A DNA stretch of 64,000 bases. Source: Zygaena filipendulae (taxonomy: Eukaryota > Arthropoda > Insecta > Lepidoptera > Zygaenidae). Shown piece by piece: positions 3,001 through 60,124 of this stretch. The notes under the pieces were generated by a model. The model did no database searches. It saw only the letters and a list, made by a program, of their open reading frames with translations, and was not told the origin of the DNA. Positions within the stretch are counted from its first letter, which is position 1. Each line of letters opens with the position of its first letter. Where the stretch lies: positions 10,811,001 through 10,875,000 of the forward strand of contig OU015657.1 in NCBI GenBank assembly GCA_907165275.2, in the 5' to 3' direction. Position numbers and translations under genes: made by a program.

Positions 3001-3554
3001 GACTCGGCGGGGACGGTAGGCAGCTGTGGGCGCTGTGGCGCCTGGGTTCGCTCAGCTGTGTGAGCGGTGGCGGTCGTCGCGGCGACCGACGGCGTCTCGG
3101 CGGCGGACGGCGTCGGTGCGACTGACCCGGTGGGGGCAACGGACGGCGACGCGGCGGTGGCCGGCGTCTGTTGCAAGCGGCAACGCGAGTGTTGCGGCAC
3201 TATATGCTCGGACGTCGAGCGAGCTATAGCAGTAGTCGCGGCGGCCGACGTCGTCACGGCGGCGGACGGCGTCGGTGCAACAGGCTGCATCGAATCAGCT
3301 GACGGTGGCTCGGCGGCGGCCAGCATCAGCTGTGAGCGCTGTGGCGCATCGGTGCGCTCGACGGTATGGCGAGCGGTGACAGTCGCGGCGGTCGACGTTA
3401 TCGCGGCGGTGGACGGCGTCGGCGCCTCTATAAGACTCACGGTTACGGGCGTGGACGTTCCGGCGTCTATATCTTCGGACGGTGAGGCGGGCGGCTGGCG
3501 ATGCGTCACCGGCCGGGCCTGAGAACGGCCACTCGTAGAGCGAGTCACCGGCAT
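1..3554 (-). CDS. gag-pol: BEL/Pao retrotransposon Gag-Pol polyprotein (partial, runs off window)
   Basis: I translated the minus strand from ATG at 3554 to base 1 without meeting a stop: 1184 codons, continuing past the edge. Residues 1-200 are Ala/Thr/Pro-rich with a repeated ERT(D/Q)APQR(S/P)QL motif at 66-76 and 168-178. A charged coiled-coil segment lies near 205-245. A proline-rich stretch with PPAGQ/PPAGH repeats lies near 290-365. A BEL-type Gag (DUF1759-like) core begins near 405 (ELPNYSGSHQEWLLF). A CCHC zinc knuckle is at 611-624 and a second Cys/His cluster at 645-677. The aspartic protease motif LLDDGS has D727 and D728. The reverse transcriptase starts near 960, with motif A D1055 and the YMDD box at 1133-1136. 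RNase H and integrase would lie outside the window. No frameshift or stop is visible, so the copy is young. It is GC-rich compared with its surroundings. Confidence 0.95.
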   Translation of the reverse strand, partial: MPVTRSTSGRSQARPVTHRQPPASPSEDIDAGTSTPVTVSLIEAPTPSTAAITSTAATVTARHTVERTDAPQRSQLMLAAAEPPSADSMQPVAPTPSAAVTTSAAATTAIARSTSEHIVPQHSRCRLQQTPATAASPSVAPTGSVAPTPSAAETPSVAATTATAHTAERTQAPQRPQLPTVPAESVLSASDACTRRSGSRTVKKESKARQEARLRLKLAAARLAVLEAEEELESIESHVDAISVAETNKRVGAWLTDSRAHLFDFPDEPIEQPLSAPPPPTSVPAPPLQPQLPSIAAPTLAGPPPPPLQPPAESPPAGQPPPAGHSPPAGQPPPAGHSPPAWAPPPAAPLPPAWAPPPAGPQPPPVWAPSGATPLAETNVNMSQLAEAIALAARGGHARSRAFAELPNYSGSHQEWLLFNAAYKDSSSTYTATENVARLRRSLRGKAKEAVESLLICNSNPDEIMRTLESRFGRPDCIASTELDRLRALSRPTDSPRDLCIFASRVTNSVATLQALNRQQYLNNPDIVKVTTDKLCPSIRYRWYQYAKPHRDQEPDLVTLARFLGLEAETCAPYAQPEQVSPLEPASRPPQRRPNRTFAATENSDSAKSKCPVCNAVGHTTEVCKKFNDLSCDARWDLAKERRLCFRCLRVRKRMHSCKTKKCDRDGCPLSHHALLHSTSRAKKAPTQETETVTTACAPTKFQTYLKIIPVCVSGPAGVVNTHALLDDGSTITLVDADLARQTGATGPVEPLFIEAIAGTRLATPSSQHVALQLKGSRGDAEIMARTIDALRLSPQAVTESDLADCLHLEDIKDEIRYDDIQPRILIGQDNWHLLLASEVRKGQRHQPVASLTPLGWVLHGAHSRTLGQRVHHVYHLTTDDRMDEQLKHYFALESLTVNPKRPVNDPEARALRILDECTTEKDGRYETALLWKQDDPAMPCNRENALSRLHGIERKLDRSPSLKVRYEEQMTALIEKGYAEPAPASSTPNRTWYLPHFAVVNPLKPEKLRIVHDAAAKTKGVSLNDHLLTGPDLLQSLPGVMMRFRQHAVAVTADIAEMFMQVKIRPSDRDALRYLWRGSRRDGEPPTEYRMTSLIFGATCSPSTAIYVKNRNAVRYQNTMPRATTAVVNNHYMDDYLDSFETTAEAVEVSNQVRDIHRRGHFDLRKWASNSVDVLGAIDPEAA

Positions 3555-14082: not shown

Positions 14083-14133
14083 TCAGGGCATATTTTGAAG
14101 GCATTCTTTGATTTGGGACCACGCTTGTAAATT
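14083..14133 (-). CDS. Snx4: Snx4 coding exon 10 and stop
   Basis: Acceptor TTTGCAG, then NLQAWSQIKECLQNMP and TGA. The C-terminus aligns with the GIQVWTNAKECFSKM end of vertebrate SNX4, so the gene is complete. Confidence 0.93.
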   Translation of the reverse strand, partial: NLQAWSQIKECLQNMP

Positions 14134-17100
14134 CTGCAAACAAAATAAACTATTATATTATTTTACCCAATACGTGTCTGTCGTTCACTTCTGTAAAATT
14201 TTATAGGACTAAAAATGTTCTGCGTCAGTTTACTTCCCGCAGCACAACGCTGCGCCTATTCATTCCAATTGCCACGATTTAGCTAATAGTAATGACTGTT
14301 TTAACCCTTTAAATAAATAAATAAATAAAAATGTTTTTTCATTACTCATACTCGGAAAGTAGGTCTGAAATTGCCTGAGAAGCGGGTTGAAAGTAACACT
14401 TTTCAGCCCTAGGGAGAATCGCTTTCAACTGACAGCTGGATACTGCAGAAACTCAAGTTTTTTTTTTATGTCATAGGGGGCATACTTACTGGCCAGTAGC
14501 ACACCTAATGGTTGATTTATGTAAAATAAAATTCACTCATTTTTTTCTTTAGCTAATTCCTATTTTTATTTTGACTTTCCTTGCATTCGTAATGAAAAGC
14601 ACAGTGTTATCCTCGGGAGAAAGACTTATTTAGTCCCTCGATCTATTGGCGCCAAACCCCGTCTCGGGACTAAATAAGTTACTTTCACCCCTAGGATAAC
14701 AATGTACTATTGCAGCCTTAACTCACTTCCAGCGCCACAACCTTTAGGCATAAATATTTAAAATTGCAGTGATTTGTTAGTAACGAATTGACACGAATGT
14801 TTGGCGCAAGGAGCACGTCTTTCGTAGATCGTGATATTACGGGGATGGCGGTGAAGGGATTAATTTTGATTTTTTCTGCTAAGAAACTTATTGGAACGAA
14901 GTTCCTTACTATTAGGTATTAGTATCTTTTCTAAAACGTACTCACCTTTTTAGCAGCTTTAATTTGCAGCGATATGAAGCCGACGAGCGACTCGTGGAGG
15001 TCTTTGTCTTTCTGCTTTTGGAACAGTTCAATCTCCAAGGACACTTTCTTGGAGAATTCCCTTAAACGAACATAAATTTAATTTAAAACTAATCGCCGCC
15101 CCCGGATATGTTCGCGTGATGTCCTAAAGCACAACCTTAATACTAACATATTATAATACGCTTTAAGTTTGAAACTGACGTGAATATTACTCTGTCTGGT
15201 AATGCACTTACTGTGTTAAAATAAGCGCCTGTACGCTATAAAAATCATATCTGCAGGTTATTTATTTTGAAATCTATGGCAGAATATGTAAATAGGGTAA
15301 ATATATTTTTTTCATAATAATAATAACAATATATCTGCAGTAATTTATTAAAACATAAAAAAAAAATCTAAAAACCGCCAACATTTTTGGCACTTCCAAT
15401 TCTTAAGGGATAAATAAATGTCGCAGAGTTATCATATCATCACAAGTCAGTATTCACTCTATTTCACATATTTTACTATACAGATATCGTTAAAGCGGAT
15501 CCCTTACACATACACATTACACACACACGCTTAGATACGCTAAACTTTGTTTTATTTTGACATTTTTGATTTTTCATAAAAAGTTTAAAATTTTATTGTA
15601 CAAATAATTGTAATGTATATCTTGTTTTATATTCGTTTTTATTAAAGATATGGAAGAGCTGCACATCCTAACAAAAGTATATATTTATATTTAAAAGGAT
15701 GTTCAACAAACCATATTTGCAAAAATACCTTTGGTTATGAAATAAAAAATTTGAATTTGAATAGCGACAACGATAGCAACTCACTCGAGATCGGCCTTCG
15801 CCTTCTGTATGGCGAGCTGGTCCGCCTCGATCTTGGCGTCGAGCGCGCGCGTGCTCTGGTCGCGCACGATGTCCGGCTCCGTGGTGCCGAACAGCCGCGA
15901 CATGAGCCCCGACTTGCCGGCCGCCGCGCGCCCGCGCTCCGACACCCTGCCCGCACCGCGCACACGTCGTCATGTACAAATGTATACCCTATACCCTGTA
16001 GCGGGGCTGCTCCGACACCCTGCCCGCACCGCGCACACGTCGTCAGATACAGATATATACCCTATACCCTGTAGCGGGGCTGCTCCGACAGCCTGCCCGC
16101 ACCGCGCACACGTCGTCAGATACAGATATATACCCTACACCCTGTAGCGGGGCTGCTCCGACAGCCTGCCCGCACCGCGCACACGTCGTCAGATACAGAT
16201 ATATACCCTATACCCTGTAGCGGGGCTGCTCCGACAGCCTGCCCGCACCGCGCACACGTCGTCAGATACAGATATATACCCTACACCCTGTAGCGGGGCT
16301 GCTCCGACACCCTGCCCGCACCGCGCACACGTCGTCAGATACAGATATATACCCTACACCCTGTAGCGGGGCTGCTCCGACACCCTGCCCGCACCGCGCA
16401 CACGTCGTCAGATACAGATATATACCCTACACCCTGTAGCGGGGCTGCTCCGACACCCTGCCCACACCGCGCACACGTCGTCAGATACAGATATATACCC
16501 TACACCCTGTAGCGGGGCTGCTCCGACACCCTGCCCGCACCGCGCACACGTCGTCAGATACAGATATATACCCTACACCCTGTAGCGGGGCTGCTCCGAC
16601 ACCCTGCCCGCACCGCGCACACGTCGTCAGATACAGATATATACCCTATACCCTGTAGCGGGGCTGCTCCGACACCCTGCCCGCACCGCGCACACGTCGT
16701 CAGATACAGATATATACCCTACACCCTGTAGCGGGGCTGCTCCGACACCCTGCCCGCACCGCGCACACGTCGTCAGATACAGATATATACCCTACACCCT
16801 GTAGCGGGGCTGCTCCGACACCCTGCCCGCACCGCGCACACGTCGTCAGATACAGATATATACCCTACACCCTGTAGCGGGGCTGCTCCGACACCCTGCC
16901 CGCACCGCGCACACGTCGTCATGTACAAATGTATACCCTATACCCTGTAGCGGGGCTGCTCCGACACCCTGCCCGCACCGCGCACACGTCGTCAGATACA
17001 GATATATACCCTACAGCCTGTAGCGGGGCTGCTCCGACACCCTGCCCGCACCGCGCACACGTCGTCAGATACAGATATATACCCTACACCCTGTAGCGGG

Positions 17101-20100
17101 GCTGCTCCGACACCCTGCCCGCACCGCGCACACGTCGTCAGATACAGATATATACCCTACACCCTGTAGCGGGGCTGCTCCGACACCCTGCCCGCACCGC
17201 GCACACGTCGTCAGATACAGATATATACCCTACACCCTGTAGCGGGGCTGCTCCGACACCCTGCCCGCACCGCGCACACGTCGTCAGATACAGATATATA
17301 CCCTACACCCTGTAGCGGGGCTGCTCCGACACCCTGCCCGCACCGCGCACACGTCGTCAGATACAGATATATACCCTACACCCTGTAGCGGGGCTGCTCC
17401 GACACCCTGCCCGCACCGCGCACACGTCGTCAGATACAGATATATACCCTACACCCTGTAGCGGGGCTGCTCCGACACCCTGCCCGCACCGCGCACACGT
17501 CGTCAGATACAGATATATACCCTACAGCCTGTAGCGGGGCTGCTCCGACACCCTGCCCGCACCGCGCACACGTCGTCAGATACAGATATATACCCTACAC
17601 CCTGTAGCGGGGCTGCTCCGACACCCTGCCCGCACCGCGCACACGTCGTCAGATACAGATATATACCCTACACCCTGTAGCGGGGCTGCTCCGACACCCT
17701 GCCCGCCCCGCGCACACGTCGTCAGATACAGATATATACCCTACACCCTGTAGCGGGGCTGCTCCGACACCCTGCCCGCACCGCGCACACGTCGTCAGAT
17801 ACAGATATATACCCTACAGCCTGTAGCGGGGCTGCTCCGACACCCTGCCCGCACCGCGCACACGTCGTCAGATACAGATATATACCCTACACCCTGTAGC
17901 GGGGCTGCTCCGACACCCTGCCCGCACCGCGCACACGTCGTCAGATACAGATATATACCCTACACCCTGTAGCGGGGCTGCTCCGACACCCTGCCCGCAC
18001 CGCGCACACGTCGTCAGATACAGATATATACCCTACACCCTGTAGCGGGGCTGCTCCGACACCCTGCCCGCACCGCGCACACGTCGTCAGATACAGATAT
18101 ATACCCTACACCCTGTAGCGGGGCTGCTCCGACACCCTGCCCGCACCGCGCACACGTCGTCAGATACAGATATATACCCTACACCCTGTAGCGGGGCTGC
18201 TCCGACACCCTGCCCGCACCGCGCACACGTCGTCAGATACAGATATATACCCTACACCCTGTAGCGGGGCTGCTCCGACACCCTGCCCGCACCGCGCACA
18301 CGTCGTCAGATACAGATATATACCCTACACCCTGTAGCGGGGCTGCTCCGACACCCTGCCCGCACCGCGCACACGTCGTCAGATACAGATATATACCCTA
18401 CACCCTGTAGCGGGGCTGCTCCGACACCCTGCCCGCACCGCGCACACGTCGTCATGTACAAATGTATACCCTATACCCTGTAGCGGGGCTGCTCCGACAC
18501 CCTGCCCGCACCGCGCACACGTCGTCAGATACAGATATATACCCTACAGCCTGTAGCGGGGCTGCTCCGACACCCTGCCCGCACCGCGCACACGTCGTCA
18601 GATACAGATATATACCCTACACCCTGTAGCGGGGCTGCTCCGACACCCTGCCCGCACCGCGCACACGTCGTCAGATACAGATATATACCCTACACCCTGT
18701 AGCGGGGCTGCTCCGACACCCTGCCCGCACCGCGCACACGTCGTCAGATACAGATATATACCCTACACCCTGTAGCGGGGCTGCTCCGACACCCTGCCCG
18801 CACCGCGCACACGTCGTCAGATACAGATATATACCCTACACCCTGTAGCGGGGCTGCTCCGACACCCTGCCCGCACCGCGCACACGTCGTCAGATACAGA
18901 TATATACCCTACACCCTGTAGCGGGGCTGCTCCGACACCCTGCCCGCACCGCGCACACGTCGTCAGATACAGATATATACCCTACACCCTGTAGCGGGGC
19001 TGCTCCGACACCCTGCCCGCACCGCGCACACGTCGTCAGATACAGATATATACCCTACACCCTGTAGCGGGGCTGCTCCGACACCCTGCCCGCACCGCGC
19101 ACACGTCGTCAGATACAGATATATACCCTACAGCCTGTAGCGGGGCTGCTCCGACACCCTGCCCGCACCGCGCACACGTCGTCAGATACAGATATATACC
19201 CTACACCCTGTAGCGGGGCTGCTCCGACACCCTGCCCGCACCGCGCACACGTCGTCAGATACAGATATATACCCTACACCCTGTAGCGGGGCTGCTCCGA
19301 CACCCTGCCCGCACCGCGCACACGTCGTCAGATACAGATATATACCCTACACCCTGTAGCGGGGCTGCTCCGACACCCTGCCCGCACCGCGCACACGTCG
19401 TCAGATACAGATATATACCCTACAGCCTGTAGCGGGGCTGCTCCGACACCCTGCCCGCACCGCGCACACGTCGTCAGATACAGATATATACCCTACACCC
19501 TGTAGCGGGGCTGCTCCGACACCCTGCCCGCACCGCGCACACGTCGTCAGATACAGATATATACCCTACACCCTGTAGCGGGGCTGCTCCGACACCCTGC
19601 CCGCACCGCGCACACGTCGTCAGATACAGATATATACCCTACACCCTGTAGCGGGGCTGCTCCGACACCCTGCCCGCACCGCGCACACGTCGTCAGATAC
19701 AGATATATACCCTACACCCTGTAGCGGGGCTGCTCCGACACCCTGCCCGCACCGCGCACACGTCGTCAGATACAGATATATACCCTACACCCTGTAGCGG
19801 GGCTGCTCCGACACCCTGCCCGCACCGCGCACACGTCGTCAGATACAGATATATACCCTACACCCTGTAGCGGGGCTGCTCCGACACCCTGCCCGCACCG
19901 CGCACACGTCGTCAGATACAGATATATACCCTACACCCTGTAGCGGGGCTGCTCCGACACCCTGCCCGCACCGCGCACACGTCGTCAGATACAGATATAT
20001 ACCCTACACCCTGTAGCGGGGCTGCTCCGACACCCTGCCCGCACCGCGCACACGTCGTCAGATACAGATATATACCCTACACCCTGTAGCGGGGCTGCTC

Positions 20101-23100
20101 CGACACCCTGCCCGCACCGCGCACACGTCGTCAGATACAGATATATACCCTACACCCTGTAGCGGGGCTGCTCCGACACCCTGCCCGCACCGCGCACACG
20201 TCGTCAGATACAGATATATACCCTACACCCTGTAGCGGGGCTGCTCCGACACCCTGCCCGCACCGCGCACACGTCGTCAGATACAGATATATACCCTACA
20301 CCCTGTAGGGGGGCTGCTCCGACACCCTGCCCGCACCGCGCACACGTCGTCAGATACAGATATATACCCTACACCCTGTAGCGGGGCTGCTCCGACACCC
20401 TGCCCGCACCGCGCACACGTCGTCAGATACAGATATATACCCTACACCCTGTAGCGGGGCTGCTCCGACACCCTGCCGCACCGCGCACACATCATCATGT
20501 ACAAATGTACACCCTACACCCTGTAGCGGGGCTGCTAGTAATGCCAACTTATACCTACTGCTAGGTCACTGAGTACTGACATCATATCGAACAAAATCTA
20601 TACTAATACTAGCTGTCCCCCGCGATTTCATCCGCGGTAATTTCGGAGTTCCCGCGGGAATTCCGGAAAAAAAGTGCTGTAGTTTACGGTGATAAGCAGT
20701 TCCCCGCATCAATTCCGGAGTGCCCGCGGGAATTCCGGGATAAAAACTATCCTATCTTTTAAGTTGGACCATTTTATAAATGGTTATAAAATTTTATCAA
20801 AATCCGTTCAGTAGTTTCGGAGTCCATCGCGGACAAACAACGTGACACGTGATTTATATATATTAGATTAAATTATAAATGTGAAAGTTTGGATGGATAG
20901 ATGGATGTTTCTTATTAAATCACACCAGAACGGCAGAACGGAATTGGATGAATTTACGCATTATACTACTTACTTGAGACATCTTTTTAAACTAATCGTA
21001 AATACCAATAATATCGGCTCCATGCGCACGTGGTCTCAGCACTGTACTTAAACACCACACTCGTCCGTCGGTCGGTAACGTACTAACTCTGTGCGTCACA
21101 CACATCTACATTGGAGCCCGTGCGGAGGAGACGACAAGTGCGTGCTTATCTCTTTCTCGCATACACTACATCTAACCCGATGACAAGTTTGAATATGAAC
21201 TGGTTGTTAAAGACCTGTTGTTGAGCGTGTCGTGCGCGTTCTCCAAAGCGCGCTGCAGCGCTTCGTGGTTGCTGCACAGCTGCTGCAGCGCTCCCGCGTA
21301 GAACAGGTACTCCTTGAGCTGGTCCGCGAGTTGCTCTTCGTCCTCCGCCACCGAGTCTATGCTGTCTGCTATCGAGTCTGACATGAACAACAAATAACCA
21401 AAAAAATAAAAATCATGACCCTTACAGTGGTGAAACTAGAACCACCTGTTATAAAAACAAAAATTTATATTGAAAAACAATACCACTATACAAATACATT
21501 AGAATATAAAGAATAGGGTACATAATTATGTACTACTTTTGATGACAATTGTTGCATTTAAACTTGATATCCCAAAGTTGAAAAAATATCAGAAAACTAA
21601 TATTATGAAGAGAAGTATAGATTTTTTGTATGTTTGTCTATACTAATAAAGAGGAAAGATTAGATTTTTTGTTTGTTTGTTACGATTTAACACAAAAACT
21701 ACCTGACTGATTTAAAAAATGGTTTCACCATTAAAAAGCTGCATTATCCCTGAGTAACATAGGTTATATTTTAATCCGGAATTCCCGCGGGAACTCCGAA
21801 ATTATTGCGGGCGAAACCGTGCAGGACAGCTAGTAATGGATAAATACCAAAACTACCATACCAATTTAAAAAATTCATACACTTATTGGAAGCTACAGTA
21901 TTAGTGCCATAGGAAACTTTTTAGAGTTCCCCGAGGGAGTTCCGAAATTCACGCAAATGTAACTGCTAGTTTATAACGTAGAAATATGCTAGTCTCTTAT
22001 ATGGATAGCTGTTTCCCGCTAACGTCCACAAACATTATCACTTTGCAATATATTAGTGTAAAAAACAAACCAAGCTGTCTTACCGAAGTAATGCCCGGCC
22101 TTTTGCAGACCGTCCCCCATTTCCTTCTCGATGACACTCCACTCGCTAAACAGTTTGCCGTAGTTGGCGTGCAGCTTGCATAGCGCGTAGTTCTTTTCTA
22201 TTATCTTTGACCTGTCGGGAGATTTTATCACATAATCTATTACCTCTATTTGTTTTTAAATTAATATTATGTATTTTGGATGAAATTTTTAACCGACTTC
22301 CAAAAAGGAGGAGGTTCTATGTTCGATTGTATGTATGTTTTTTTTTTTTTTTTTTTTTTTTTATGTATGTTCACCGATTACTCGAAGACGGTTGGACCGA
22401 TTTGAAAAATTCTTTTTTTGTTTGAAAGGGTATACTCCCAATTAGGTCCCATTGCCACCAAGTCCAGATCTGATGGTGGGATCTTGGAGAAATCGAGGGA
22501 ACTCTTCAAAAATTATAGGCACACCTATAGCGATTTGGGTATTTTTTATAGTAAATCGTTCATTTGCTTTTGAAAAGCAAAATTTGAAGAAGTGGAACTG
22601 ATGATGAAGACCACAGATGGTCATCGGAACTACTCAACAATAATATGTAGTTCACGGATTCCGATTGGAGCGATTTCGAAAATTGTTTTTTTGGATTTTT
22701 TATATTAAATCGTTTATTTGCTTTTGGGAAGTAAAATTTGAAGAAGTGGAACTGATGATGAAGACCACAGATGGTCATCAGAACTGCTAAATAATAGGTA
22801 TTTCACAGATTCCGATTCGTTAACTTTAATATGGTTTCTAAACAATTTATGTTCATCACAATGTATATGGTGAAGTGGAACTGATGATGATGTACCAGGA
22901 GAACTCCTCAACAATTAACGTCCCTGCGTCGGGAAAAGCAATATTTTGTAAAAGGTGATGAGCAGTTGACATTAGGCTATTGTAACTTAGAGAAATTACG
23001 AACTAAGTCACTTAAAAGCGAGAAATAAACAAATTTTTAACAAAAAAATTAAAACCGACTTCCAAAAACATAAAACTAAAAATCTCAAAATAAAAAGCTA

Positions 23101-26100
23101 AAAATAACAACATACCGATTTAATCCAAAAGACAAAAACACACGTAATATTATTATTGGTTTGTGCTACCACTAATCGGTATGAAGTCGGTGACAAGCCA
23201 AATATGGAGGGGGTAGATGGGCTAAATCGACTCCTGCTACCAGTTTTTTGTGAACAGGACAACCCAAGTGGGCAGAGGCTTGTCACCGAATTCAAACCGA
23301 TTAGTGGTAGCACAAACCAATAATAATATTACGTGTGTTTTTGTCTTTTGGATTAAATCGGTATGTTGTTATTTTTAGCTTTTTATTTTGAGATTTTTAG
23401 TTTTATGTTTTTGGAAGTCGGTTTTAATTTACTTTACATAAGTATACAGAAAATTAATATTACGGTACAAGACATTTTATTAATTTTCTGACATTGTGAG
23501 TCCTAAATTATGTAGTTTTATTTCTTTTCTTTTTTATATTGAATTTGACTTTTTTTTTGTTTTTATTGATATTTATGACATATTGTATACCTAATTGTGT
23601 AATTCTTTTGTATTGTGACTTTTACCTATATTCGAATTAAAATTTTTGACGATCACTTTATCCTTTGACATATTATAATTTAATGTAATTTTGAAATTGA
23701 TAATGTGAAATAAATGAATCTAATCTAATCATAATGTAGGAAAGCACTCGGGAAATGTCAATGGAAGTTCAACCCTCCTAAGGGGCTAGTTCGTATACAA
23801 ATGGGTAGATAATAGTTTTGAAGTTCACCAACGAAAATAAAACACTTTCGGATTTTTCGTAGATATTTCAATCAAAAAGGGTGAAACGTAGATAATTTGT
23901 GGAAGGGTGGGGAGGAATAGTTAGTATAGATAAATACACAATACTAATTTAAATTATTCCTCACAGATTACATAAGGATATGTACCTTGTATAAAGGAAG
24001 TTTCCTAAATTAGTTTCTAGCTGCTTCCCATAATTCTTCACGCTTTCAATTTGTGGATCCGGTTTCTTCAGTCTGATGGACACCGACAAGGATTTAAGCT
24101 TATTCTCTGCTTGCAATATGTAACCTTCAATCATAAGACATGGCAAATTTTAGATAAGGCGCAATCATATAATTAGCAGGTCGGCACGAGTCGAAAAAAC
24201 ATAGATTGAAATTCGAAACATCGTAGACTTAAAGCCTAATAGGGATGTTGACTACATTTGAAAATCAAAATTCTAATTAGTCCGTCAGTTAGAAAATAAA
24301 AAAAACAATAGACACGTATTTTTTGCTTTTTTAAATAAATTAAAATATACAGAGATAAAGCGCATTAAAGTTTAGGATGAGGAGGTCGTGACGTCACTAA
24401 CCACAAAACCGCCATACAAACTGTCAGAATAGTGACGTCACGCGAAATTTCAACTCAATATATCGCCGTTATTTTTTGATTACGTAAAAAAAGAAAAAAT
24501 ACGTGTCCAATATTTTTTAATAATCTACAAGACGGACTAAAAAATAAAAATTAGTCAACATGCCCATTCAGTTATAACTTTAATGTGACGGTTATGGTAT
24601 AGAAAAATAGAAATGAAATCAATTTTTTAAGGATTTTATACTTATAACGGGTGGAGACGACACAATATGACAATAAATTAAAACACTGACAATACTAATA
24701 TATAAGAGTATAAAGAAACTATCAAATAAGTCTTAATATCGAAATCCCGCGCGAAATCGAAATTTCTTATTTATGAAAATTCTCCTCACTTGTATTTTTT
24801 TCCTGGCTAGCTAAATGGATGTCGGATAGGTGAACAACGTCCGTCCTCCACGTTGCCAATCAGGTGGCACCGCGCGCGCGCGCAGTTGCCGCTCTTGTCA
24901 CGGGTTAGTGAACTAATGTTAACAAATGGTGTTCTATTTTTTTTTAATCCTATTTAGATTGTTCGAAATTTTTTTGTATTTCGATATTAGGACTTATTTG
25001 ATAATTTCATTATACTCTAATATATTAGTATTGCTGGCATGAAAACAATTTATTCGCGCCATATCTTTTTCATTTTATAGTGTTAGTAATTGTGGGTAGC
25101 TTTATTTTAAATATAAAAATAGATAGGTAATAAGTCAAAATAGATGCTCCCCTTTTGTAGAAATTACCAAATCATGGACTAGAATAAATTTCCACTTTTT
25201 CCCGAAAATACATATTTTTTACGAGTGGCGTCAAATGTCATTTTACCGTACCACTGTCGGTAATGGTCTCCCGCCACCCGTGCTCCTGCTGTATGAAGTT
25301 CAGGAACTGATCGTCGAAGCACAAAAGCGGATGTGACGCAACTCTCAAAAGGAAATTTTCCAAGCCCGCCCGACGACGCTCCACAAATTCAGGATCGGTC
25401 GTGTCCGACTTACGCCATGCGTAGAGAATCTGGAACAACACAATAACTACTACGTAAAATTGCCCATTTTATAATATTCTTAAATAGTATAAGACAAATT
25501 ATAAACACAACATATTTTTATGGTTCTTACTTCTTTGCCAAATCACAAAACGGGACCTTTTAAGATTGGTACACACAGTCAGTGTGGCGAGATCGCGACG
25601 CGATGCTAACTGCTATTAGTAGTAAACTATATATACTTAATTATATAATATGTATACATATATGAAAGAAACATATATATATAAGATAAGATACACAGTT
25701 TATAAGATACACCACAGATCAACTAGCGTCGCGCAGGGCGTGTCTGCACTTTGTATCCTTTTAAACATAACTGGCTGTCCGTTCTGTTCTTAGCTGACAT
25801 CTCCTGCCTGTCAACTATCTACCTGCAAAATTTCAACTTCATACGTCAAGTAGTTTTCGAGATTTATTTAGTCAGAGCAAGACCTTTTATTGATATAAAT
25901 AAACAGTTCCATATAACTGATAGTGCCACTATCTCACCCTGCCGGCTGTGTAATGTGTATTTCAACCCATCTAACTTGGTCATGCTTTTGTGTCAATAGG
26001 TATATTGCAGCCTTTCCAACACTTCATTTGATTATTATGAGTTTTGATGCAACTCACTATTCCTGAGAGCTCAGGACAACTGAAGAGACACAAAATACTC

Positions 26101-28009
26101 AAACTCGACAGTTAATGTTGAATAAATATGGAGATGCTCCCGCTGGGGAATATGCTCTGCAAGCTAACTTCGCACTCAACTCATCTGCTTATAGTCTTAC
26201 TGACTGATTGCAAGATAAAATTATATATTGTATATAAAAAAATAGTTTTGATGAATTTTTCTAGTTTGTTACCCGTTTTTCAGGCAGCGGTGGAATGACA
26301 ACATGCGGGTAAGTCACTTGCAAATAATCATGTATCTGTTCAAATTCTGTGTATCTTCTCCATATGGTGCTGATTTTAGATTGCACCAGTTTATAATCAG
26401 GATCCGTTACCCTGCAAAGTACATTTATAATACCACACAATATTAAACTGTTAGTTAATTAGTTAAACTAAAAAGTCACAGCTGTACTCAGAGTAGTTTT
26501 TTCGCATTTGAGTTAAATTTAGTTAAATGCCAATTAACATTAAATAATGAACTCTGATTGGGGCAGTTTTGTTTTTAAAATCTTTACTTAAAATTAAGTA
26601 ATCATAAGTAATTATTAAAACAACTCTGAGTGTGGCCGTTACACTGCAAACTACACAAACTTAATGCAATGCAAACCAAATAACACATTACATAAAAAAA
26701 GAAAATTACTATAGGAAGTTATTTTTCTTCCAATTAATTGTATCTCACAAAAGTAGTTCACAAAATTTTGTATGTTGGACATAATATTAATATTCATTAT
26801 ATGACAGTGAGGCCAGGATATTAATATTGTGTAAGTATACTTTTAAGATCACGTTACAAAGAGCTTCAATTATTGCTAAGATTCAAAAAACTCATCGAGT
26901 GACTAATCCTGGTGAACAGACAATAGGCTAGTTTCCTAAATTTTCTTTTTTAGTCCGTTTTGTAGATTATTAAAAATATTGGACACATATTTTTTATTTT
27001 TTATGTAACCTTAAAATAACGGAGATATATCAAGTCGAAATTTCACATGACGTCATGCCTTGCTACAGTTTGTTTGCACGTTATAGTGGGCTGTGACATC
27101 ACGAGTCCCCCACCCTAAACTTTAATGCACTTTATCTATGCATATTTCCATTATTTTAAAAAAGCAAAAAATATGTGTCTTTTATTTTTTGATTTTTTTA
27201 CCCAGGAAACTAGCCTATTGCTTACTATTGCAGCTGGCCACACTGCAAGTGACACCCCTAGGTAGGTGTCTAGCTAGTTGAGTGTGGCCACCTGCAATAC
27301 TTATGCAATATGTCTGTTGACTAGGATTAGTCACTCGGCGATTTCCATGGCTCTTAGCAATAAGCACAGCTTTTGTAGTGTGGCTTTAGCCATAATATCC
27401 CTTTCATATTTTCTTTTCTCTTTTAATGGAACCTCATACCAATGCTAAAAAATAAAAGAGACAATTATAAAAAAAATAAAATATATCAAGCAAATATAAA
27501 TGTAGAATGAATAAATATTTCACTGATTATTTATCTATTGTGATTGATTTTATGTCTAACATTCATAGTATATTGCCAATACTGTAGGTATCTAAATAAA
27601 TTATTTTTTATAAATAGGAAGAAAGTCTTAATTATTTTTAATATTATGACTTTCGTCTACAAAGCAGAAGCAGCCTGCAAACTAAAATCTAGCCTGCGAA
27701 GAAGAATGGTCTTCAATTTCTATGTTTACTTACTTCAAATCAATTAAATAGACGGTATAATGGTCCCGGACATGCAATGTTCCATTAGCACGCTTTTCAG
27801 ATTCTACAATGGATATATCAACATGTTTCAGCAATGTATCCTGGAAGAAAAATGAATTTATTGAAAATATTTTGGCGTCTACACAAGTAGGCGTAGTAGT
27901 AGGTAGTAACGGGATAGCGATATTTTACAAGATTCTCCAGTTCCTCGATTGTTTCCACCGTGAGTGGCGAGCTCGAAGCTTTGATCGGCGAATTCTCTGC
28001 CGACATCAT
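14083..28009 (-). CDS. Snx4: Sorting nexin-4 (SNX4), PX-BAR protein, complete ten-exon gene
   Basis: SNX4 binds PI3P on early endosomes through its PX domain, dimerises and curves membrane through its BAR domain, and sorts cargo for recycling; it also serves autophagy. Ten coding exons (27929-28009, 27734-27840, 26273-26411, 25252-25429, 23986-24124, 22084-22211, 21215-21377, 15785-15946, 14946-15060, 14083-14133) sum to 1263 nt, giving 420 residues plus stop (human SNX4 has about 450). All nine junctions keep frame. PX landmarks: IWRRYTEF with R82-Y83, the PPLPEK loop at 103-108, and FVERRRAGLENFLLR from 124. BAR landmarks: NYGKLFSEWSVIEKEMGDG in exon 6, EDEEQLADQLKEYLFYAGAL in exon 7, SRLFGTTEPD in exon 8, and QAWSQIKECL near the C-terminus. 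The first ATG at 28009 is followed by a second ATG at 28006. Introns 2-7 are loaded with repeats; intron 7 is 5.3 kb and mostly one minisatellite. Confidence 0.95.
14332..14710. mobile_element. Non-autonomous element with GTTATCCT inverted ends, copy 1 (Snx4 intron 9)
   Basis: Contains TTCATTACTCATACTCGGAAAG, ACCCGCTTCTCAGGCAA-like sequence in inverse, and a hairpin module at 14606-14702 flanked by GTTATCCTCGGG and CCCCTAGGATAAC. An inverted, longer copy lies at 44985-45570, and the two define the element. Confidence 0.7.
14946..15060 (-). CDS. Snx4: Snx4 coding exon 9 (BAR)
   Basis: Acceptor CGTTTAAG, donor AAG|GTGAGT. Encodes residues 366-404 (ELFQKQKDKDLHESLVGF), matching the IERFKEQKNRDLKEALISY helix of vertebrate SNX4. 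Confidence 0.93.
15785..15946 (-). CDS. Snx4: Snx4 coding exon 8 (BAR), acceptor inside the minisatellite
   Basis: Acceptor GTGCGGGCAG at 15947-15956 lies in the first 73-bp repeat copy, and the first 11 exon bases are shared with the repeat. Donor CTCGA|GTGAGT. Encodes residues 312-365, including KSGLMSRLFGTTEPDI. Confidence 0.88.
15936..20536. repeat. 73-bp minisatellite, 63 copies, carrying the Snx4 exon 8 acceptor
   Basis: The unit reads from GCTCCGACACCCTGCCCGC through ACACGTCGTCAGATACAG and ATATATACCCTACACC to CTGTAGCGGGGCT. The first GCTCCGAC at 15936 and the last at 20462 are exactly 62 x 73 bp apart, so all complete copies keep length; the last one has a 1-base deletion. Copies differ by a few substitutions. 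Copies 1, 14, 35 and 63 carry a CATGTACAAATGTA variant instead of CAGATACAGATATA. The array fills 87% of Snx4 intron 7. Read on the minus strand, each unit contains GCGGGCAG|GGTGTCGGAGC, the exon 8 acceptor. Short open frames in it are by-products of the period. Confidence 0.98.
20606..20872 (+). repeat. CCGCGG repeat, compound, GTGACACGTGAT tail type (Snx4 intron 7)
   Basis: Two heads in tandem (CCCGCGATTTCATCCGCGG; CCCGCATCAATTCCGGAG) share one tail with TTTTATCAAAATCCGTTCAG and GTCCATCGCGGACAAACAACG. It directly abuts the minisatellite flank. Confidence 0.85.
20873..20975 (-). repeat. CCGCGG repeat, tail-only fragment
   Basis: Inverted tail with AAATTATAAATGTGAAAGTTTGGATGG and AACGGAATTGGATGAAT; the head is missing. 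Confidence 0.55.
21215..21377 (-). CDS. Snx4: Snx4 coding exon 7 (BAR)
   Basis: Acceptor TTCATGTCAG, donor AACAG|GTCTTT. The donor is weak beyond GT, but it is the one that keeps frame into exon 8. Encodes residues 258-311. Confidence 0.9.
21596..21836 (-). repeat. CCGCGG repeat, inverted (Snx4 intron 6)
   Basis: Double inverted tail start (ACTAATATTATGAAGAG and ACTAATAAAGAGGAAAG), then CGGAATTCCCGCGGGAACTCCGAAATTA and the inverted head ending GACAGCTAGTAAT. Confidence 0.85.
21905..21975 (-). repeat. CCGCGG repeat, head remnant (Snx4 intron 6)
   Basis: GTTCCCCGAGGGAGTTCCGAAATTCACGC and GCTAGTTT are the decayed inverted head. Confidence 0.6.
22084..22211 (-). CDS. Snx4: Snx4 coding exon 6 (BAR helix 1)
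   Basis: Acceptor CCGACAG, donor TTCG|GTAAGA. Encodes residues 216-257 with the highly conserved NYGKLFSEWSVIEKEMGDG. Confidence 0.95.
22288..22930 (+). mobile_element. AACCGACTTCCAAAAAGG repeat with internal tandem duplication (Snx4 intron 5)
   Basis: Opens with AACCGACTTCCAAAAAGGAGG, followed by a run of 25 T at 22338-22362. A module with GAAGAAGTGGAACTGATGATGAAGACC occurs at about 22588 and again about 22740, with a weaker third near 22872, spaced roughly 150 bp. This is a familiar lepidopteran repeat; its class is not fixed here. Confidence 0.7.
23046..23430. mobile_element. Long foldback element: 154-bp arms, 77-bp loop (Snx4 intron 5)
   Basis: Positions 23046-23199 are the reverse complement of 23277-23430 with two mismatches. 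The arm ends carry AAAACCGACTTCCAAAAAC, the terminus of the neighbouring repeat family. Transcribed with Snx4, it would fold into a very long hairpin. Confidence 0.93.
23986..24124 (-). CDS. Snx4: Snx4 coding exon 5 (PX-BAR linker)
   Basis: Weak acceptor ATTGAAG, donor ACAAG|GTACAT. Encodes residues 169-215 (AENKLKSLSVSIRLKKPDP), matching the LKALNATFRVKNPDK segment of vertebrate SNX4. Confidence 0.92.
24238..24572. mobile_element. CRE-bearing MITE, copy 1 (Snx4 intron 4)
   Basis: Terminal inverted repeats GGGATGTTGACTA and TAGTCAACATGCCC, with inner inverted TAGTCCGTC and GACGGACTA. The centre carries two TGACGTCA octamers (GTGACGTCACTAACC, AGTGACGTCACGCG). No coding capacity. Confidence 0.88.
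24640..25040. mobile_element. Long-TIR MITE with (CG)n core, copy 1 (Snx4 intron 4)
   Basis: The left end (24691-24746) and right end (about 24978-25032) are inverted repeats of about 55 bp containing AATACTAATATAT and ATCAAATAAGTC. The centre has CACCGCGCGCGCGCGCAGTTG. The second copy at 51337-51745 shares the preceding ATAACGGGTGGAGACGAC as well. Confidence 0.85.
25252..25429 (-). CDS. Snx4: Snx4 coding exon 4 (end of PX)
   Basis: Acceptor GTTCCAG, donor AGTG|GTACGG chosen because it alone restores SGYILQ with exon 5. Encodes residues 110-168 including EFVERRRAGLENFLL. Confidence 0.93.
25560..26270. other. Snx4 intron 3, no recognised content
   Basis: AT-rich intronic sequence with no repeat family or gene that I recognise. 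Confidence 0.5.
26273..26411 (-). CDS. Snx4: Snx4 coding exon 3 (PX core)
   Basis: Acceptor TTTGCAG, donor CGG|GTAACA. Encodes residues 63-109 with the PI3P-binding RRYTEF motif and the proline-rich PPLPEKR loop. Confidence 0.95.
26921..27220. mobile_element. CRE-bearing MITE, copy 2 (Snx4 intron 2)
   Basis: Same interior as the copy at 24238 (TAGTCCGT, CATGACGTCATGCC) but with its own perfect 17-bp outer inverted repeats, CAATAGGCTAGTTTCCT. One of the two CRE octamers has decayed to TGACATCA. Confidence 0.85.
27734..27840 (-). CDS. Snx4: Snx4 coding exon 2 (PX strand region)
   Basis: Acceptor TTTTTCTTCCAG, donor AA|GTAAGT. Encodes residues 28-62 (HVDISIVESEKRANG), the first beta strands of the PX domain. 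Confidence 0.93.
27929..28009 (-). CDS. Snx4: Snx4 coding exon 1
   Basis: Residues 1-27, starting MMSAENSPIKASSS, an unstructured N-terminus. Donor CTT|GTAAAA, phase 0. Intron 1 is only 88 bp. Confidence 0.88.
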
Positions 28010-29455: not shown

Positions 29456-30026
29456 TAACATAGGTAAACCAGTAGTCTGGCGCACGTGCATTTGCGATAA
29501 AAGTAGATTGTAATAAATACCTACCAACCAAAATCTACTTAACCTATATAAAAGTTTGCAGTGCAGTTTGTCAGTGCGCGTCGCTAAAACTAGTGTGAGA
29601 AAAGTATTGGCGTTCAGCGCGGCGTCCCAAGTTGATATTATATTTTCCACAATTACTTACTTATTCCCGAAACTGCCAATTTTGCCAAAACCGTATTTTT
29701 GTACTGACGACCGTGGTTTTCATTTGTTTTCATACTGAACTGAGTTGATGCCACATCCATAATACCTATTTATATATTCTGTGGGCGCGATAATGACGCC
29801 AGCGCACCTTCAAACACCACGCGAGCGCAGCCGCGGGTAAGCAGCTAGTGTTTTTTTTTTATAAATTCTTATCTATTTGCCGAGTCGCCCGAACATATTT
29901 TCAGTTGATGATATTTTAGTCCATAGTGTGTGGTCGTTCAACATACACGATAACACGACTGTTTATTGTCCTGTCGCAGTATTTGTGCCTACCGATATAT
30001 TATTTAAATTAAATTAATTTTTCGGC
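29456..30026 (+). promoter_or_regulatory. 5' flank of the caspase gene
   Basis: This must hold the caspase promoter and 5' UTR. Arthropod initiator-like TCAGTT lies near 29904. A decayed CCGCGG-repeat head (CCGCGGGTAAGCAGCTAGTG) sits at about 29832-29852. No TATA box is convincing. Confidence 0.35.
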
Positions 30027-31184
30027 ATGTCCAATACTACACGAGAGCATGGCACCAACGATCACATCGTTGACAATGCTCAATCACCAACTGAGATCGT
30101 TGAAGACAATCAGGCTGAAGGTGATGATCAGTATAATTCAAATGTAATTTTAACCGACAGCGCCAGTGATGATAAAATAACCGTGACCGACGCACGAGCT
30201 TTTTCCAGTCCGGTGACAAAGGAAAATACTCAGTCACCGACTGAGTTTGATGAAAACATTCTGACGGAAGGCGTTGACCAAAGAGACCAAATGAATAAAT
30301 CGAAAGAAATCTCTGGCGACGATGAGAATCCCGATGATGAAAAATCCACAGTGACCGACGCCCGAGCTGATATCAGTACTGTGACAAGCGAAGTGTATGC
30401 AGCGACAACTGTAGAAAAATATGCTCCGTATTACTACATGAAACACAAGAACCGTGGCAAAGCGTACATTTTTAATCACTTTGCTTTCAATGAGTCTTTA
30501 GATCTCCCGAAGCGCACTGGAACCTATATCGATCGGGATAATTTGACTAGTGTACTTCTAGATATGGGATTTGATGTGTTTCAACGTGAGGATCTAACGG
30601 TGAGTGAAATCCACCGAGAGATTATGACTCTTGCTCGCATGAACCACACAGACAACGACTGTGTGCTGGTGGCTGTGATGACTCATGGAGATTACGGCTT
30701 ATTGTACGCGAAAGATACTCATTACCGACCGGAGACTTTGTGGGAACCGTTCACTGCTGATAGGTGCAAAACTTTAGCTGGCAAACCCAAACTATTTTTC
30801 ATTCAGTCTTGCCAGGGGTTTAAAATGGACAGCGGGATTATGCTTTCGAGACAATTTACACAGTGTGATGGCTCAAATAAACGTTCGCCCGAAGTATATA
30901 AGATTCCTGTACACGCAGACTTTTTGATAGCTCGTTCTACGATACCAGGTTACTTTTCATGGCGGGAGCCTAATTTTGGTTCTTGGTTTATTCAAGAATT
31001 GTGCGAGGAGTTAAAAAAATATGGGACAAGACAAGATTTATTGCGACTGTTGACGTTTGTGAATCAAAAAGTTTCTATGTACGAGACTTACAATCCGTCG
31101 GACTTGGAGAAACATCGTAAGAAACAAACACCGAGTATCAGTAGTATGTTGACCCGGTTACTCGTGTTTCACCCTAAAAATTGA
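30027..31184 (+). CDS. Effector-type caspase, intronless, with duplicated prodomain
   Basis: A 385-residue cysteine aspartyl protease, intact in one exon. Residues 1-130 are an acidic prodomain without CARD or DED. Two related blocks of about 50 residues (19-68 and 69-121) each start QSPTE and contain TVTDARA. The caspase fold starts at APYYYMKHKNRGKAYIFNH. Specificity Arg is in RTGT (R163). Catalytic His220 is in VAVMTHGDYG and catalytic Cys262 in FFIQSCQG. The likely intersubunit cleavage is after D281 (FTQCD|GSNK). The small subunit has HADFLIARSTIPGYFSWREP, GSWFIQELCEEL and a C-terminal MLTRLLVFHPKN. It resembles lepidopteran caspase-1, an executioner of apoptosis, but the prodomain is far longer than the roughly 30 residues usual there. 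Oddities: QSCQG for QACxG, Arg303 and Glu314 at conserved pocket positions. Lack of introns suggests a retrocopy. An AATAAA lies at 31315. Confidence 0.96.
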   Translation: MSNTTREHGTNDHIVDNAQSPTEIVEDNQAEGDDQYNSNVILTDSASDDKITVTDARAFSSPVTKENTQSPTEFDENILTEGVDQRDQMNKSKEISGDDENPDDEKSTVTDARADISTVTSEVYAATTVEKYAPYYYMKHKNRGKAYIFNHFAFNESLDLPKRTGTYIDRDNLTSVLLDMGFDVFQREDLTVSEIHREIMTLARMNHTDNDCVLVAVMTHGDYGLLYAKDTHYRPETLWEPFTADRCKTLAGKPKLFFIQSCQGFKMDSGIMLSRQFTQCDGSNKRSPEVYKIPVHADFLIARSTIPGYFSWREPNFGSWFIQELCEELKKYGTRQDLLRLLTFVNQKVSMYETYNPSDLEKHRKKQTPSISSMLTRLLVFHPKN

Positions 31185-59704: not shown

Positions 59705-60124
59705 AAATTTGTTTGCCTGCAGAGGGACACAATCGGATTTAATTCAATATTACACAACACCACCGAGCCTCTCGTTTGCCCACCGAGGGACACGGTCTAA
59801 CTCTCTAAGCCCAATCTGGCACCATCAAATTGTAGCCTACCGTTTGCCCACCGAGGGACACGGTCTGACTCTTTCAGCACAATCTTACACCACCGAGTTG
59901 TAGCCTGCCGTTTGCCCACCGAGGGACACGGTCTGACTCTTTCGGCACATTCTTGCACCACCAAGTTGTAGCCTGCCGTTTGCCCACCGAGGGACACGGT
60001 CTGACTCTTTCAGCACAATCTTGCACCACCAAGATGTAGCCTGCCGTTTGCCCACCGAGGGACCCGGTCTGACTCTTTCAGCACAATCTTGCACCACCAA
60101 GTCGTAACCTGCCGTTTGCCCACT
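59705..60124. repeat. 68-bp minisatellite, about six copies
   Basis: CGTTTGCCCACCGAGGGACA starts at 59773, 59841, 59909, 59977, 60045 and (partial) 60113, exactly 68 bp apart. A diverged copy precedes at 59709. Copies drift toward the left edge. Open frames on its minus strand are by-products. Confidence 0.95.

Follow-up and report, generated by a model that had tools for sequence, protein, structure and literature searches.

The Snx4 gene and its seventh intron

The window, which is the whole stretch of 64,000 nucleotides of Zygaena filipendulae DNA that was analyzed, carries an intact Snx4 gene on its minus strand, as had been proposed in the original prediction and as is now confirmed by protein matches and by an exon-by-exon model of 10 exons and 420 amino acids (coding region 14083..28009). 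Exons 1 to 10 of this model are located at 28009-27929, 27840-27734, 26411-26273, 25429-25252, 24124-23986, 22211-22084, 21377-21215, 15946-15785, 15060-14946, and 14133-14083, respectively, and all nine introns (9/9) are of the GT-AG type. The protein contains a PX domain (Pfam), together with a Vps5 C-terminal match that is under its cut-off, and is 75-90% identical to its counterparts in 37 close relatives. The best 34 of the protein-search matches are full length and 84-89% identical, and the named ones among them are from Lepidoptera, while a search of solved structures with the protein gave 29 matches, which are other sorting nexins or PX proteins and none of which is named SNX4.

Intron 7 (15947..21214, minus strand), which also proved to be the site of the repeat array described below, is 5268 bp long, with the array taking up 4590 bp of it, compared with 88-1774 bp for the other introns. 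It is flanked by exon 7 (21215..21377, minus strand), with the donor CAG|gtcttt, and by exon 8 (15785..15946, minus strand), which has 162 nt (divisible by 3), a G+C content of 72%, and the donor TCGA|gtgagt. The acceptor AG of exon 8 is at 15947..15948 on the same strand (gcgggcag|GGTGTC). The last codon of exon 7 is incomplete (phase 2, AAC AAC AG), the frame is restored by gcgggcag|GGTGTCGGAG, and over 34 residues around the junction the model aligns gap-free with 41 of 41 SNX4 proteins, which were picked from the best 120 of 724 matches and comprise 30 with Lepidoptera names, seven unnamed close relatives, and one each from a caddisfly, a lacewing, a bee, and a beetle. R312, the codon of which is split by intron 7, is kept in 38 of these 41 proteins, and in a second alignment of the query with nine proteins, seven of which are shorter or variant forms, the 7/8 junction is free of insertions. 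The gap-free alignment at the junction gives good support to the exon-proximal acceptor, and it is very probable from the model and the alignment that exon 8 begins where it was first read and that its first 11 bases (15936-15946), which are those within the array, encode ordinary SNX4 residues. The proposal that the nearest repeat unit contains the in-frame acceptor together with 11 coding bases is thereby upheld.

Structure of the minisatellite

According to Tandem Repeats Finder there is one array, at 15936..20536 (minus strand), with a period of 73, 63.0 copies, and 98% matches, and cutting the sense (minus) strand at the array's own unit start divides it into 63 units and a 3-bp partial unit. 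All of the 63 are 73 bp long except for one of 72 bp, and the 63 tandem copies of a 73-bp unit that were originally counted are thus borne out. Each unit is made up of 62 intronic and 11 coding bases. The copies were said to repeat both the acceptor and the coding bases, and this is the case for the AG in all units (63/63) and for the intact 11 bases, GGTGTCGGAGC, in 60 of the 63, with GCTGTCGGAGC in the other three. A 25-mer ending in the acceptor has 62 matches in the window with up to three mismatches, and it has none in any of 100 shuffles (100/100).

The unit adjoining exon 8 is copy 63 in sense order (15936..16008, minus strand) and holds the acceptor of exon 8 along with the 11 bases with which the exon begins. 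At the other end, 678 bp from exon 7, is copy 1 (20462..20533, minus strand), which has 72 bp and is the most diverged copy. The three bases AGC are common to both edges of the array. The consensus is matched exactly by 45 of the 63 units, the array contains 10 sequence types in all, and the variant units are scattered along it. The variants include G15C in six units and G64C in three, one of which also has G17A, with a few further single changes, and a haplotype of five bases (G17A/T27C/C30T/T35C/C36A) that is common to units 29, 50, and 63. A block duplication of about 21 copies had been suggested by eye, but in a permutation test the observed value was reached by 4110 of 20000 shuffles; a narrower adjacency count, picked after looking at the data, was reached by 457 of 20000. 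The block duplication was therefore dropped, as the permutation test does not support it.

An array with 45 identical units among 63 is prone to length errors, and the copy number could in part be an assembly artefact, with a true array that is much shorter or longer, which would be compatible with any of the interpretations considered below. We regard this as quite improbable, however, in view of the contiguity of the assembly (56 contigs, 366 Mb), the length of the array, which is merely 4.6 kb, and the scatter of the variant units along it.

Genome context and neighbouring features

A search of the whole 365.9-Mb assembly of 56 contigs with 401 bases of the array as the query gave at least 20 matches, counts in this search being lower bounds, and all those listed are at the Snx4 locus. 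In a genome sample of 20 stretches of 10 kb (200 kb), two of which flank the window, there is no array with a period of at least 10 and at least 10 copies; the sample does contain two long arrays with shorter units, of 5 bp (about 200 copies) and of 6 bp (about 213 copies), which are under the period limit of 10. A 25-base word of the unit has no match in the same 200 kb with up to four substitutions, the 25-mer has no exact match among viral contigs, and no Rfam family matches the window at gathering thresholds.

Several other features of the window were noted. A dispersed sequence resembling CTGTCCCCCGCGATTTCATCCGCGG occurs at 20613, 77 bp past the donor-side end of the array, and at ten other places in the window (up to four substitutions), and similar sequences give 28 matches in 15 of the 20 sampled 10-kb stretches. 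A second minisatellite is present at 59766-60123, with 5.3 copies of a 68-bp unit and 92% matches. The first 4000 bases have a G+C content of 55-62%, compared with 30-40% in those other 2-kb bins that are outside the array or take in no more than its edge, and they include G+C-rich short tandem repeats at 2459-2615 and 3075-3425; a long frame at 2407-2925 has no Pfam match at an E value of 0.001. On the plus strand, a frame of 388 codons without a stop (30018-31184) has a caspase domain (PF00656, E 1.6e-58), and the sequence at the usual place of the catalytic cysteine is QSCQG.

Splice signals across the copies

The splice signals of copy 63, where splicing is expected, are, as judged by motif, no better than those of the other copies. 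The branch-point-like motif CTGAC, a full match to yTnAy with the A at position -24 relative to the start of the exon, is found in 59 units, ATGAC replaces it in units 29, 50, and 63, and unit 1 is without either. Among the nine acceptors of the gene, that of exon 8 has the fewest pyrimidines at -20..-5 (7 of 16), followed by exon 6 with 8, and these same two acceptors, exon 6 and exon 8, are the ones with no yTnAy match in the last 40 bases. The exon 7 donor (21205-21220) must reach across the array. It deviates from the usual donor consensus at +3 to +5 and looks weak, so some mis-splicing is plausible.

Joining exon 7 to any upstream copy would lead to an in-frame stop at the tenth codon past the split codon (62/62), which by inspection is TAG and is supplied by the next unit, while skipping of exon 8 would keep the frame (162 nt, 54 codons). 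These outcomes bear on whether the units could serve as alternative exons or as stepping stones of recursive splicing, for which AG and GT motifs within the units might seem to qualify them. The core of a zero-length recursive site is AGGT, in which AG and GT are juxtaposed, and it occurs 0 times in the array, so recursive (ratcheting) splice sites are ruled out by the sequence. In a mutually exclusive exon cluster of the Dscam type every unit is a whole open exon; the in-frame stop that follows from each of the 62 upstream units rules out such a cluster or cassette. The probability left to this pair of proposals is close to nil.

Another proposal is that RNA folding silences the upstream copies, in that the branch point UCUGAC would pair with the exon-start GUCGGA and neighbouring units would pair with each other, leaving copy 63 more open on account of exon 8 downstream and its own ATGAC. 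The UCUGAC/GUCGGA pairing does appear in the predicted fold of one unit, and under three window settings the modelled unpaired probability of copy 63 lies above the median for copies 2-62, at the AG as well as at the branch point, with a rank of 1 to 4 of 63. Its absolute openness is low, however (0.20-0.35 for the AG, 0.09-0.16 for the branch point, and 0.002-0.11 for CAGG), and it is surpassed at the narrowest setting by two other copies for the AG and three for the branch point, and at the widest setting by one other copy for each. In addition, a four-unit stretch is no stabler than its dinucleotide shuffles (z = -0.92; 40 of 200 shuffles are at least as stable). Since the modelled folding does not exceed what composition gives, masking by structure was rejected as the main account and is kept as a weak rival that we hold to be highly improbable.

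Origin of the array and expected splicing outcome

The original prediction held that the array probably arose by amplification of the boundary itself, and this is supported as the best reading because the exonic bases of the unit encode SNX4 residues that align with the proteins of other species. The exon boundary would then predate the repeat and would itself have been copied. The array probably began with the tandem duplication of a 73-bp segment spanning the boundary of intron 7 and exon 8, and slippage or unequal exchange within the array probably brought it to 63 copies; the 45 identical units and the position of the most diverged copy at the donor-side terminus are as expected for expansion from within. 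The first duplication could have been mediated by microhomology, leaving AGC at both edges, although a match of three bases is a weak sign of this. Going by their titles, Zhuo et al. (2007) and Gao and Lynch (2009) reportedly deal with the origin of introns by tandem or internal duplication.

As for splicing, exon 7 would be joined to the exon-proximal copy, since no other acceptor adjoins the rest of exon 8 and gives the 162-nt exon. This agrees with the earlier proposal that the last copy is the sole one leading into the full exon, as it is copy 63 that runs into exon 8. From exon definition in general, the exon 8 donor is expected to pair with the nearest acceptor, which is the sole one that gives a short exon. 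With any other copy the exon would be longer and would contain an early stop, and nonsense-mediated decay would be the expected fate of the transcripts. Taken from the DNA, the array is therefore probably a passive minisatellite of the mirage type over the intron 7/exon 8 boundary, mostly tolerated as intron filler, with splicing still proceeding from exon 7 to the exon-proximal copy.

A different possibility is that the array tunes Snx4, with the upstream copies acting as decoy acceptors or as binders of splicing factors, such that the share of transcripts that carry a stop and decay, or that skip exon 8 in frame, would rise with copy number and the length of the array would set the amount of full SNX4. 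The retention of the AG in 63 of 63 copies and of the full yTnAy match CTGAC in 59 is in keeping with this. A quantitative effect on splicing is possible because in human ABCA7 the downstream exon is skipped more often when the array is longer; a donor at a distance of one unit is also used there (PMC5954066). In the same source, however, usage of that donor is unchanged with array length, and it was exon skipping alone that changed (PMC5954066). Moreover, an insertion at the junction is found in 0 of 41 SNX4 proteins, though the array need not exist in those species, and recent expansion without selection explains the near-identity of the copies. We therefore consider a copy-number dial of this kind unlikely.

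The array is a natural test of how the spliceosome chooses one acceptor among 63 that are near-identical. Clean use of the proximal copy would mean that the choice must rest on the neighbouring exon and its donor and not on the acceptor's own sequence; otherwise, copy number would be a variable with the potential to differ from one individual to another.

Comparison with known boundary repeats

Mirages in Adh3 were reportedly treated by Canestro et al. in 2002.

The statement in the original prediction that no described gene with such an acceptor array is known is wrong, as the literature includes the amphioxus mirages, with BflGb6 on the acceptor side, as well as ABCA7 and odorant-receptor genes of Ostrinia (PMC3087553, PMC5954066, PMC3081303). 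Mirages are minisatellites across intron-exon boundaries, and in Branchiostoma the genes concerned are BflGb6, BflGb9, and Adh3 (PMC3087553). In BflGb6 the repeated sequence consists of an intron's 3' end and the 5' part of exon 2; many of the units, though not all, contain splice signals, and the two haplotypes have 3 or 6 units of 150-160 bp that are 81-100% alike (PMC3087553).

The human ABCA7 VNTR in intron 18 consists of about 12 to 427 tandem units of 25 bp with a donor GT in each (PMC5954066). The Snx4 array is like it in that each unit repeats the splice site of the neighbouring exon, but the ABCA7 VNTR repeats the donor, starting at the GT and including no coding bases, whereas the Snx4 units hold an acceptor and coding bases (PMC5954066). 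A donor VNTR of this type is not what is found in Snx4, where the array repeats the acceptor and stops 678 bp short of exon 7. If array length did determine the amount of SNX4, the array would be an acceptor-side counterpart of the ABCA7 VNTR in a conserved trafficking gene, of which no other example was noticed by text search of open-licence literature.

The Ostrinia nubilalis OR5/8 genes have tandem repeats of 181 bp that extend from exon 7 into the 5' end of intron 7, with 2 to 5 complete units of 143 exonic and 38 other bases each, and in the text of that paper 'splic' occurs 0 times (PMC3081303). Like the Snx4 array these repeats are lepidopteran, but they are on the donor side (PMC3081303), and an acceptor-side boundary repeat in an insect was not noticed by text search of open-licence literature.

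The Snx4 array most resembles the mirages in being a tandem repeat within a gene over an exon-intron boundary, and BflGb6 in being on the acceptor side with coding bases included (PMC3087553). Each tandem unit combines exonic with intronic sequence of a single boundary, the authentic boundary is situated at the array's edge, where copy 63 is followed by the rest of exon 8, and splice signals recur in many units, the AG in all 63. In amphioxus, RT-PCR and Adh3 data suggested that splicing is undisturbed (PMC3087553). Unlike BflGb6, with its 3 or 6 units of 150-160 bp, Snx4 has 63 units with a length of 73 bp, of which 45 are identical, in another phylum and another gene (PMC3087553). What is unusual is the scale on the acceptor side, 63 units compared with 3-6 in BflGb6; on the donor side, ABCA7 has 12 to about 427 (PMC3087553, PMC5954066). 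Acceptor-side boundary minisatellites, described in amphioxus, are thus extended to a gene of an insect, in which the units are about ten times as numerous as in BflGb6.
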